Of a stretch of 64,000 nucleotides of DNA, positions 2,622-32,971 are shown one piece after another. The stretch is taken from NCBI GenBank assembly GCA_002319075.1, contig NVQB01000001.1:5456001-5520000 (forward strand), in the 5' to 3' direction. The stretch's first letter is position 1, and each line of letters starts with the position of its first letter. The stretch is from Sphingobacteriaceae bacterium (GTDB taxonomy: Bacteria; Bacteroidota; Bacteroidia; B-17B0; Aurantibacillaceae). Below the pieces are notes generated by a model that was not told the DNA's origin, made no database searches, and was given only the letters and a program-made list of their open reading frames with translations. The position numbers and the translations under genes are program-made.

Positions 2622-2652
2622 CCATAACTAAAAAAGACTTAAGAAAGATACA
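2622..2652 (-). promoter_or_regulatory. Putative shared ECF-type promoter of the OmpA-domain gene
   Basis: Read on the minus strand this is TGTATCTTTC, 10 nt, then TTTAGTTATGG, with 31 nt between AGTTAT and the ATG at 2592. The same arrangement and the same 31-nt distance precede the LRR gene (30106-30135) and the sigma gene (32339-32369). The TATCTTT part could instead be a housekeeping TAnnTTTG-type -7 box, so sigma specificity is inference. Confidence 0.5.
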
Positions 2653-30105: not shown

Positions 30106-30135
30106 TGTATCTTTTCAAAAAAAATTCAGTTATCA
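30106..30135 (+). promoter_or_regulatory. Putative shared ECF-type promoter of the LRR gene
   Basis: TGTATCTTTT, 9 nt, then TTCAGTTATCA, with 31 nt between AGTTAT and the ATG at 30165. It is nearly identical in sequence and position to the motif at 32339-32369 before the sigma gene and similar to 2622-2652. The two halves could be -35 and -10 elements with a 17-18 nt spacer. Confidence 0.55.
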
Positions 30136-30164
30136 AAATAAATGCCTGGCTGGCTAAATAAAGA

Positions 30165-32327
30165 ATGAGATTAAATTTACTAGTAATTGGTTTTATTATC
30201 TTTTGTTATTTTCCCCTATTGGGTCAGGTCGACTCCTTGTCGGAACTCAGCACCACAGAAACCATTTACACAGCCAATCCAAAAATTAAAACACTTAACC
30301 TCGATTTAAGCAATCCTGAAGAAGTGGAATTGGTTCTTAAAAAAATTCACACCTTTCGCTATTTGGAGTCTCTTACACTTGATGGAGAAGCCGATGAAAA
30401 CACGCTAAAAAAATTATTTTACAGAGTCTCTGTTTTAAAAAATCTGAACAAAGTTACGTTCAGAGAAAACGAACTTAAAAAAATGCCCGAAACTATCAGC
30501 ACACTTCGCAACCTGCAATCAATTACCATTGAGGGAAACACAAGCCTGGACTATTCGGACTTATGCTTCAAACTAAAAAGCCTTCCGCTAACTGAACTCA
30601 AACTCCTTGATAATGATATAAAGAAGACGCCACCCACCATCTCACAATTGACTTCGCTCAAAAAACTCACGATCTCCGGAAGCAACCAGCTGGATTATTC
30701 GGTACTGGTAGATCAACTCACCAAAGTTAAGGGCCTCACCACCTTGTCTATTCCGGTAAATTACATTTCAGAACTTCCAAAAAACATCGATCAGTTAAAA
30801 GCCTTGCAGGTACTCGATGTTAGTAATAACAACCTGACGGAACTCCCCAAAGAACTTTCTTCTTTAAAAGCAATTAATAAACTAAGTATCCAGGGTAACT
30901 TGTTAGTTGATCCGGCAAAAGATCTTGAAAATTTAAAAGACAATACTATCCAATACCTGGCCCTGGATAAAGAAATATCGGGTGAAGACCTTGAGCGCAT
31001 AAAAAAAATGTTTCCTACCGCTCAAATCTATTTTCCACTTAACGAAGAGGAACCAAAAGAACCAGCAGCTGTTAAAGAGCAAACCGTTAGTCCACAACGG
31101 ACAGGTGAACTCCGCGTAAAAAAAGAAGCCAGACTTTTATCGGGTGCTTATGCTCTTTATCCTGTGCTTTTTCAGCCCATAGTATACACTTTTGATACAC
31201 TCACTTTTGAAGAACGTTACAAAGATCTCAGGTATGCAGGTACTTCCCGGATCATGCGTGCAGGGGTTATGGACGAGCCACCCTTTCATTTTCGTACACT
31301 ACGTAACCGTGGTGAGGGAAAAGGAAAAAGAAAAGAGATTTGGTTTTACTTTCCTTTCGAAGGAGTTTTTCAGGAACTACGTGCATTCTCGGGCATGTAT
31401 TGGGTTTACAAAGGCCCCTTGACAAAAAAACAATTTAAAAAAACTTATTTAAAAATAAGAAGGCGACCAAGCAGCGCTTACTTTTTTCCTCGTGTAAAAA
31501 GAAAATTTCCTATTGGATGGAACGACATTCGTGTGATCATTGATAAAAACAACAGCCAATTCACCATTCAACTTAAAAGCGATACTGGATTTTCTGAATT
31601 CACAGCTTGTCCCGTTTTTGCTTATATGGATCCTTATAAAAACACACAAACTTATACTAAAAAATATCTCCTGTATCAACGCTTTCTTCAAAGACGGAGT
31701 CAGAATTTTAAAAAACAGCAAGCGCGTGAAAAGGCTACTTATGATCGCAACTATAATAAGGTAAAGGAATACGCCTGGAAAGAACTGCAGCTAAGAATGA
31801 GTGATGAAGAAAAATTAATGTCGCAGGAAGACTGGCTTGAGTATTACGACAACATTGTAGCCAACGAAGAAGAAGCCATCAATGGCAGTTCGCTAAGTAC
31901 ACCCTTTATTTTAAGATCTCTGGCACTTAAAAGTTATGCCGCATTTGCAGAACCTACAAACCCTTCAACGGTAGCAACGCGAAGCAATACCGCTTTTTAC
32001 AGAACAAAATCAGTGGAGGTTGATTTTATGAATGCCAACGGAGCAGGTAAACTGGCCGTTGCAAACATTATCGTGCTTGACTCAAAAAACAAACTTTATT
32101 ACATGAACGCCGGTACACTCGGACTTCTGCCAAATACCCTCAGCTTGCAGCAATTTGCAGGTTACAAAATAATAATACAGATGCGAAATGGCGACTGGGG
32201 CGCGGTAGATACGGAAGAAATAGACAAACAAAACTTCGAATCCAGTGAAACCCTGCTCTTTAAAACCCAGGTTTTTGACAAGAATTTAGACACTATTGGC
32301 GATCTTTTACAAAGTAGTTTAAAGTAA
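30165..32327 (+). CDS. Secreted leucine-rich-repeat protein, candidate member of the adjacent ECF regulon
   Basis: The 720-residue protein has a signal peptide (cleavage near LLGQ). About seven LRRs of ~23 residues follow (~45-265), e.g. LKALQVLDVSNNNLTELPKEL. A ~400-residue C-terminal part then has basic stretches and beta-rich segments (ANIIVLDSKNKLYYMNAG, GYKIIIQMRNGDWGAVDTEEI). The order of motifs in that part resembles the C-terminal regions of the sigma partner (32961) and the OmpA protein (334-2592), though by eye the likeness is weak. It is upstream of the sigma gene on the same strand, shares its promoter motif and is probably envelope-located, perhaps sensing or protecting the cell surface. 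Confidence 0.78.
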   Translation: MRLNLLVIGFIIFCYFPLLGQVDSLSELSTTETIYTANPKIKTLNLDLSNPEEVELVLKKIHTFRYLESLTLDGEADENTLKKLFYRVSVLKNLNKVTFRENELKKMPETISTLRNLQSITIEGNTSLDYSDLCFKLKSLPLTELKLLDNDIKKTPPTISQLTSLKKLTISGSNQLDYSVLVDQLTKVKGLTTLSIPVNYISELPKNIDQLKALQVLDVSNNNLTELPKELSSLKAINKLSIQGNLLVDPAKDLENLKDNTIQYLALDKEISGEDLERIKKMFPTAQIYFPLNEEEPKEPAAVKEQTVSPQRTGELRVKKEARLLSGAYALYPVLFQPIVYTFDTLTFEERYKDLRYAGTSRIMRAGVMDEPPFHFRTLRNRGEGKGKRKEIWFYFPFEGVFQELRAFSGMYWVYKGPLTKKQFKKTYLKIRRRPSSAYFFPRVKRKFPIGWNDIRVIIDKNNSQFTIQLKSDTGFSEFTACPVFAYMDPYKNTQTYTKKYLLYQRFLQRRSQNFKKQQAREKATYDRNYNKVKEYAWKELQLRMSDEEKLMSQEDWLEYYDNIVANEEEAINGSSLSTPFILRSLALKSYAAFAEPTNPSTVATRSNTAFYRTKSVEVDFMNANGAGKLAVANIIVLDSKNKLYYMNAGTLGLLPNTLSLQQFAGYKIIIQMRNGDWGAVDTEEIDKQNFESSETLLFKTQVFDKNLDTIGDLLQSSLK

Positions 32328-32338
32328 TTTTAGAAAAC

Positions 32339-32369
32339 TGTATCTTTTTGTCCCCCTTTTCAGTTATCA
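32339..32369 (+). promoter_or_regulatory. Putative autoregulatory promoter of the ECF sigma gene
   Basis: TGTATCTTTT, 10 nt, then TTCAGTTATCA, with 31 nt between AGTTAT and the ATG at 32399. ECF sigma factors usually drive their own operon, and the matching motifs before the LRR and OmpA-domain genes fit a small regulon. Confidence 0.55.
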
Positions 32370-32398: not shown

Positions 32399-32971
32399 AT
32401 GAATGAAATTATAAGCCCATATCACCAGAACAAAGAGCAGATTGAGCAGGAACAAGTTCTTATAGCAGCAGCTAAAAAAAACTCTTCCAGGTTCGCTGGT
32501 CTTTATAAAAAATACTATGAGCAGATCTTTCTGTTCATTTTAAAAAGAGTTGAATCTGAAGACACGGCTGCAGACGTGACTTCTCAGGTCTTTTTAAAAG
32601 CCCTCACTAACCTTAGCAAATACAAGGATATGGGATTTCCCTTTTCATCGTGGTTGTTTCGTATTGCACGCAACGAAATATATGATATGTACCGCGACAA
32701 AAAAATCGACCTCGTAGTAAGCATCGAAAAGAAAGGTGTGGGAGAAATGATTGCTGAGATGGGCACGGAAGACAAAGAGGACCACAGCAAACTTTATTTA
32801 GCCTTAGGTCATTTGGATGAAAGTGAAATGGAATTAATAGAATTAAGGTTTTTTGAAAAGCGCCACTTCAAAGAGATCGGCGAAATTTTAGAGATTACAG
32901 AAAACAACGCGAAAGTTCGCACTTACAGAGTATTGGACAAACTTAAAAAACTTTTGAAAAATGAAAGATAA
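32399..32971 (+). CDS. ECF-type RNA polymerase sigma factor
   Basis: The 190-residue protein has sigma region 2 (~30-95: FAGLYKKYYEQIFLFILKRV, AADVTSQVFLKALTNL, SWLFRIARNEIYDMYRDKK) and region 4 (~130-185: LDESEMELIELRFFEKRHFKEIGEILEITENNAKVRTYRVLDKLKK), with no region 3. It directs polymerase to a special promoter set. Its last 11 nt overlap the next gene, which encodes a single-pass membrane protein, as in sigma/anti-sigma pairs. The upstream motif at 32339-32369 is probably its own promoter. Confidence 0.92.
   Translation: MNEIISPYHQNKEQIEQEQVLIAAAKKNSSRFAGLYKKYYEQIFLFILKRVESEDTAADVTSQVFLKALTNLSKYKDMGFPFSSWLFRIARNEIYDMYRDKKIDLVVSIEKKGVGEMIAEMGTEDKEDHSKLYLALGHLDESEMELIELRFFEKRHFKEIGEILEITENNAKVRTYRVLDKLKKLLKNER

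Follow-up and report, generated by a model that had tools for sequence, protein, structure and literature searches.

A candidate ECF-type promoter shared by a sigma factor operon, a leucine-rich repeat gene and, less surely, an OmpA-domain gene in a Sphingobacteriaceae bacterium

A bipartite motif in the genome of a Sphingobacteriaceae bacterium (Bacteroidota; assembly GCA_002319075.1) is probably the promoter of an extracytoplasmic function (ECF) sigma factor. The stretch analyzed here, called the window below, comprises 64,000 nt of contig NVQB01000001.1 (positions 5,456,001 to 5,520,000, forward strand). Within it the motif precedes genes for a leucine-rich repeat (LRR) protein, for the ECF factor itself (at 32399, followed by an overlapping gene for a putative membrane anti-sigma factor), and for an OmpA-domain protein. 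We put the probability at about 0.82 that the motif is the promoter of this ECF factor and serves the factor's own operon, the LRR gene and, less surely, the OmpA-domain gene. The original prediction, made from the letters of the window alone, had read the two halves as −35 and −10 boxes of an autoregulated regulon. Conservation upstream of homologous ECF genes, TGTAAC variants of the first half, and conservation upstream of LRR homologues support that reading, and the sequence evidence that the factor would recognize its own promoter is strong.

The motif, TGTATCTTTY-N9/10-TTYAGTTAT, is present in exact copies at all three predicted sites, although the outer ends first given for them were 2 nt too wide. 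The LRR site has a 9-nt spacer between the halves, the sigma and OmpA sites one of 10 nt, and a gap of 16–17 nt separates TGTATC from AGTTAT. As originally described, AGTTAT lies exactly 31 nt from the ATG at all three sites and the 31-nt leaders are otherwise dissimilar (pairwise identities of 10, 11 and 12 of 31). For the OmpA-domain gene this distance is counted from the ATG at 2592, which opens a signal-peptide-like sequence; the longest open reading frame (ORF) opens at 2700, and with that start the motif would fall within the gene. The fixed spacing, which holds at the three window sites, was rejected as a general rule, with 30 nt at a fourth site of the same genome, ∼29 nt at a same-genus LRR homologue and 133 nt in another family. 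Bacillus subtilis SigW promoters read TGAAAC-N16-CGTA, and TGTAWC-N15..17-NGTTA resembles such ECF promoters.

The whole-genome search proposed with the original prediction, run with the strict pattern TATCTTTN-N7..12-TTYAGTTAT, returned three matches and no reversed one in 5.65 Mb. All three fall inside 29.7 kb, and the chance of three random points lying in such an arc is ∼8 × 10−5. Dinucleotide shuffling of the window, repeated 100 times, produced no match to the strict motif; a single order-2 Markov simulation of 3 Mb contained one, so a lone genome match is unremarkable. The remarkable features are the clustering of the sites and their position before genes.

Homologous ECF genes carry comparable upstream sites. 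Among 150 genomes searched, 94 (this one included) hold an ECF homologue at E 1 × 10−20; the window factor shares 68% identity with a same-genus one (genome G011) and 59% with one of another family. Upstream stretches were inspected for 30 of the 94 homologues, 27 of them at the correct place (the flanks at loci L071, L078 and L084 were too short), and a bipartite site is visible in many of these 27. Of 80 named loci, 25 have TGTATCTTT within 250 nt upstream of the ECF gene, compared with 90 of 13,987 windows drawn at random from these loci; on the opposite strand of the ECF upstream regions it occurs once in 80. A looser pattern sorts the 80 loci into 26 of TGTATC type, 26 of TGTAAC type and 28 without a recognized site. 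Promoters of TGTAAC type (GAA, CAA and others) retain a second half resembling (C/A)GTTATA at similar distance. When the three promoter labels are mapped onto a sigma tree of 83 rows, 19 changes are needed, against a shuffled mean of 39.4 (0 of 200 as low); the labels there divide 24/29/30, a scoring that differs from the 26/26/28 of the 80 loci. The window factor clusters in this tree with an other-family factor, G091 (99/96).

Two further observations concern the ECF genes themselves. The closest orthologue, on contig C420 of G011 (L071, L292), holds an internal stop, and its promoter is followed by an ORF of 47 aa; this gene is a pseudogene or the product of an assembly error. The window's own genome has a second ECF gene of the same family (C1:4641999-4642550, L100), with a different promoter type, TGTAACTGA...TTAATTATA, that occurs only once in the genome. 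Upstream of this paralogue, and also at L077, L086, L087, L088 and L093, stand TTCACYC-like repeat units, mostly spaced 20–21 nt apart (about two helical turns) and followed by TGTAWCTGA...TTA and GGCGTAAC. The repeats could be the operator of another regulator.

The TGTAAC variants bear on a competing explanation that the original prediction had already doubted, in which TATCTTT is a primary-sigma −7 box (TAnnTTTG), the genes are constitutive and TTYAGTTAT starts the leader. A consensus of TAnnTTTG has been reported for the σA of Flavobacterium psychrophilum (PMC9723704, in excerpt). TATCTTT fits TAnnTTT and is frequent in the window, with 17 copies on the plus and 14 on the minus strand, the three motif sites among them. 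The final G, however, is replaced by T in 23 and by A in one of 24 homologous sites, and at the −7-box position the window's own sites read TATCTTTT, TATCTTTT and TATCTTTC. TTG is not enriched 18–28 nt upstream (6 of 27, against a background of 248 of 1350), and a housekeeping box leaves the second half of the motif unexplained. Homologues with TGTAACGAA or TGTAACCAA lack TTT, yet their second half, at roughly the same distance, still resembles GTTATA. Because TGTAAC variants cannot be TAnnTTTG boxes, the housekeeping box is disfavored, and we consider such a box very unlikely.

Still less probable, in our estimate, is that both halves form the operator of another transcription factor acting on a housekeeping promoter. 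The halves are dissimilar and non-palindromic, their layout is like that of ECF promoters, and promoter type tracks sigma family. A two-part site whose spacer varies by 1 nt could suit an operator, and the reported binding of PorX to sigP and porT promoter DNA (PMC8265659, in excerpt) counts on the same side.

The assignment to an ECF promoter was also examined with R1, a sequence-only model made from 24 ECF promoters of other genomes (27 sites minus L185, L154, L150 and L179, which leaves 23, plus L072). R1 is independent of the window's genome but not of the first half of the motif, because all 24 were picked by a GTATC-N-TT match. Unfiltered in the window, R1 ranks the three motif sites first to third, the OmpA site narrowly: the LRR site scores 22.5 bits, the sigma site 15.5, the OmpA site 11.0 and the fourth place 10.0. 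Genome-wide, 32 places were listed at E 10, with 150 of 9,789 first-look candidates scored; among these matches the LRR site is first, C1:503489 fourth and the ECF site seventh. Ranks 2, 3 and 5 lie 93, 19 and 138 nt upstream of ORFs, and rank 6 lies opposite an ORF and is not followed by a start. Candidates include C1:4179115(-), where a gene begins 93 nt downstream with a start resembling a MotA/TolQ/ExbB protein (by eye), and C1:3457300(+), with a secreted-protein gene 19 nt downstream.

Outside the ECF promoters, the motif is also conserved at the LRR gene. It stands upstream of six of seven LRR homologues elsewhere (G011, G091, G141, L106, L154, L190 and L193; L103 is G091), at 17 to 133 nt, with exact TGTATCTTT in five and TGTATCCTT in L154; the seventh, in G141, has only a degenerate TGTATCTAA...ATTA. 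In a control of 854 ORFs from the same 86 loci, ECF genes included, the motif stands before 36 in its strict form and before 106 in its loose form. OmpA-type homologues were matched in 16 other genomes, five of them with a usable N-terminal part, and none of these five partial homologues has the motif upstream. The OmpA site is thus the weakest of the three, having the lowest R1 score (1.0 bit above the next place) and being absent from the genome-wide R1 matches listed. In the predicted regulon over at least two loci, the OmpA-domain gene is the weakest link. We think it unlikely that only the LRR and ECF sites function and that the OmpA site is a chance resemblance: despite the points just given, and a position inside the gene if its ORF begins at 2700, the site matches the full pattern and keeps the 31-nt distance to the ATG, its gene product has the ectodomain of the putative anti-sigma factor in common, and other proteins with this ectodomain are preceded by the motif elsewhere (L106, L154, L190, L193 and L301).

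Several results weigh against the ECF promoter assignment as a whole. The OmpA site is not among the genome-wide R1 matches listed, the five partial OmpA-type homologues lack the motif, and four other places are among R1's seven best in the genome. With up to three mismatches, genome counts barely exceed the reversed control (47 vs 45; 36 vs 32). A recognized site is missing from the 28 ECF homologues noted above, and vertical inheritance of a promoter together with its gene would equally track the sigma tree. Finally, in 11 named loci of the window's sigma clade, the ECF gene is never directly followed by a homologue of the putative anti-sigma factor.

The regulon of this genome looks small, with three strict sites and one good fourth. 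The fourth, C1:503489, is a one-mismatch site (TGTATCTTT...TTTCGTTAT) before the ATG of a 911-aa gene whose product contains an outer-membrane beta-barrel family domain (PF14905); its TonB-dependent receptor matches are weak and below cut-off. This site lies ∼663 kb from the window sites if the contig is circular. TGTATCTTTN13-16GTTAT finds five sites in the genome, against one for the reversed pattern, namely the three strict ones, C1:503489 and C1:3896426, where an ORF begins 138 nt downstream. The pattern TGTATC-N14-18-AGTTAT occurs nine times genome-wide (vs five when reversed), with only the three known sites near 31 nt before a gene, and GTATCTTT-N13-16-ATTAT has five matches (vs two when reversed). 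A TGTATCTTT-type site precedes exported proteins with similar N-termini (GKKQG...) at C1:1256563 (L302) and at L286 (G149); the L286 protein carries MORN repeats, and the site at C1:1256563 is only 6 nt from the ATG.

Across the 150 genomes, TGTATCTTTY-N10..13-NGTTAT has 101 sites and 17 reversed ones, counts that take in the ECF promoters themselves and the window's own genome. Eighteen genomes in which a TGTATCTTT-type ECF promoter was seen account for 42 sites (vs 6 reversed), 76 others with an ECF homologue, mostly of unclassified promoter type, for 45 (vs 5 reversed), and 56 without an ECF homologue for 14 (vs 6 reversed). G011 and G122, with TGTATCTTT...CAGTTAT and ...CCGTTAT sites before the ECF gene, are grouped with the first set; without them the counts become 37 vs 6 in 16 genomes and 50 vs 5 in 78. 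Twenty of the 101 places were inspected, chosen mostly from genomes with many sites. An ORF starts 15–48 nt downstream at 14, and the remaining six are opposite ORFs, without a near start, or 97–107 nt away. Pfam scans of ten proteins, nine from these 14, identified two PorP/SprF, one GldN, two FGE-sulfatase-domain, one MORN-repeat and one OmpA protein. Another is PorE-like, at 536.5 bits where the family cut-off is 600, and a further one, which matched nothing in Pfam, has the ectodomain by blastp.

Away from the ECF gene, the 80 loci contain 11 TGTATCTTT-type sites, nine of them at loci with an ECF promoter of that type, and none of the three TGTAAC types tested. Behind these non-ECF sites lie genes for TonB_C-domain proteins (L132 and L198 scanned), GldM (L190) and LRR proteins, among others. 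In the window's genome no type IX secretion system (T9SS) gene follows the sites examined, the three strict ones included. Genes of 531 aa close to the ECF gene in L190, L169 and L164 have a TGTATCTTT-type site 45–47 nt upstream; the L190 protein is GldM by family search, and the L169 protein is alike. Many genomes of one genus (g6) share one nearly identical site, TGTATCTTTTGAAGC...ACCGTTAT, which is perhaps conserved coding sequence.

Table 1. Promoter candidates and associated genes, in window coordinates.
Feature	Position	Strand	Details or basis
ECF-type promoter before LRR gene	30106..30133	+	−35 TGTATCTTT 30106-30114; −10 AGTTAT 30128-30133
LRR protein, 720 aa	30165..32327	+	Pfam LRR; blastp
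ECF-type promoter before sigma gene	32339..32367	+	−35 TGTATCTTT 32339-32347; −10 AGTTAT 32362-32367
ECF sigma factor, 190 aa, sigma2 + sigma4 only	32399..32971	+	PF04542, PF04545, PF08281
Putative membrane anti-sigma factor, 525 aa	32961..34538	+	Overlaps ECF gene; homologues in other ECF loci; models
ECF-type promoter before OmpA-domain gene	2624..2652	-	−35 TGTATCTTT 2644-2652; −10 AGTTAT 2624-2629
OmpA-domain protein, 752 aa	334..2592	-	PF00691; blastp

The products of these genes are related in part (Table 1). Pfam finds sigma2 and sigma4 and no other sigma domain in the sigma factor, as in group 4 (ECF) proteins. Part of the putative anti-sigma ectodomain recurs in the OmpA-domain protein (37% over 127 aa, E 6 × 10−25, blastp). 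The LRR protein has no blastp match to the putative anti-sigma factor at E 1 × 10−3; through its LRR and C-terminal parts it aligns with larger proteins of other genomes that combine LRRs with a ZU5-like ectodomain and are encoded near ECF genes.

The putative anti-sigma factor consists of a short N-terminus, one hydrophobic stretch (by eye) and a large ectodomain. A homologue is encoded directly downstream of the ECF gene in 30 of the 80 loci; within the window's sigma clade, only the window and G091 have one after the ECF gene. In L154, L190 and L193 an LRR and ectodomain gene lies near the ECF gene in place of this homologue. L129, L170 and L193 have an ORF of 232–248 codons matching the OmpA-domain protein just downstream of the ECF gene, which is the position of the putative anti-sigma gene elsewhere. 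At E 0.001, neither Pfam nor NCBIfam matches the window protein. Its 31 homologues have no consistent Pfam match at E 0.1 (scattered weak ones, and no Pfam ZU5) and no NCBIfam match at E 0.001. A sequence search for solved relatives gave three weak, unrelated-looking matches. A short N-terminal motif is kept in all 31 aligned members (loose pattern).

An AlphaFold2 (AF2) model of the 525-aa protein predicts a ZU5/GAIN-like domain, a long helix and a small beta region; the ∼100 residues beyond the ZU5-like part form short strands only. Folded alone, the ectodomain reaches a mean predicted local distance difference test score (pLDDT) of 85. VIA-align matches this model to ankyrin ZU5 (126 residues, 3.5 Å) and CD97 GAIN (146 residues, 4.0 Å), both at Z 9.0. 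Its top 11 rows are all ZU5 or GAIN, with Z from 9.0 to 5.6; row 12 is a helix at 5.2, and the rows beyond the first 11 are helices and small pieces with Z ≤5.2. The margin is modest, because a best Z of 7–8 is usual for models without a match and Foldseek alone found nothing below E 0.001 for the ectodomain. We assign the predicted ectodomain to the ZU5/GAIN superfamily fold with moderate confidence. Autoproteolysis was rejected: by the pattern used, an H-x-S/T/C site shortly before the last strand is present in none of the 31 members. A G-x-aromatic-N-C/S-D motif (residues 411–416 of the window protein) is kept in 29 of 31, with C and S alternating beside invariant N and D; cleavage there is not proposed because the motif lies inside the last predicted strand.

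Together, these features suggest how the circuit may operate. The ECF factor would drive transcription of its own gene along with that of the overlapping putative anti-sigma gene, of the neighboring LRR gene upstream and, with less certainty, of the OmpA-domain gene at a distance of 30 kb; the fourth site would add the outer-membrane barrel gene. The short N-terminus of the anti-sigma factor may tether the sigma factor at the inner membrane, and an envelope signal reaching the ZU5/GAIN-like ectodomain would free it, so that the operon amplifies itself together with envelope proteins. The OmpA-domain protein, through the same ectodomain, and the LRR protein, as a relative of ectodomain carriers, may bind the same ligand or partner and thereby close the loop.

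Autoregulated ECF circuits are of a known kind. As in other autoregulated sigma/anti-sigma operons, a sigma2-sigma4 protein is followed by an overlapping putative membrane anti-sigma gene, and the operon's own promoter is repeated before other genes. Unlike them, the anti-sigma family has no consistent Pfam or any NCBIfam match, and its ZU5/GAIN-like ectodomain is common to the product of a likely target. ECF21-Dma of Bacteroides, as outlined in an excerpt of PMC13088901, is likewise a Bacteroidota ECF factor adjoining a membrane anti-sigma factor with envelope functions; Dma has a long disordered tether and a C-terminal outer-membrane beta-barrel, neither of which appears in the AF2 model of the 525-aa protein, where the ZU5/GAIN-like domain, helix and beta region are predicted instead. 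In excerpts of PMC4800418, PMC8265659 and PMC9723704, the SigP system of Porphyromonas gingivalis and motif SM6 of F. psychrophilum represent ECF control of T9SS genes. In SM6 the −10 region contains a CGT box, and the motif described here precedes T9SS genes in some other genomes. In contrast to SigP, no such gene was found after the sites examined in the window's genome, and the SigP motif proposed in the excerpt of PMC4800418 looks different. Bacterial members of the ZU5 superfamily and GAIN are described in PMC3482391 (excerpt). The ectodomain resembles the ZU5/GAIN domains of ankyrin, UNC5 and adhesion GPCRs (G protein-coupled receptors) in predicted fold; the missing Pfam ZU5 match, the missing cleavage site and the putative anti-sigma setting distinguish it. 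Among the best matches listed from the open-licence literature, we found no description of the promoter code, the ZU5/GAIN-like anti-sigma family or the sharing of its ectodomain with a likely target; the group and its motif may figure in the published ECF classification.

Only 6% of Bacteroidetes ECF factors are reported to have a class I anti-sigma domain next to them, with other classes proposed as the dominant ones (PMC7406223, in excerpt). The 525-aa family is one concrete candidate for such a class, with a promoter code, subclade-linked −35 variants and a small regulon. We tentatively raise a broader possibility, which we hold to be doubtful: a so far unmodelled Bacteroidota anti-sigma class may sense the envelope through a non-cleaving ZU5/GAIN-like ectodomain, its sigma factor inducing LRR-, OmpA- and barrel-type proteins, several of which have the same ectodomain and would compete for or present the ligand, with the circuit extended elsewhere to type IX secretion and gliding genes. 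An ectodomain common to a putative sensor and its likely target, together with motif sites ahead of type IX secretion genes in genomes other than this one, would connect envelope sensing with the surface machinery.

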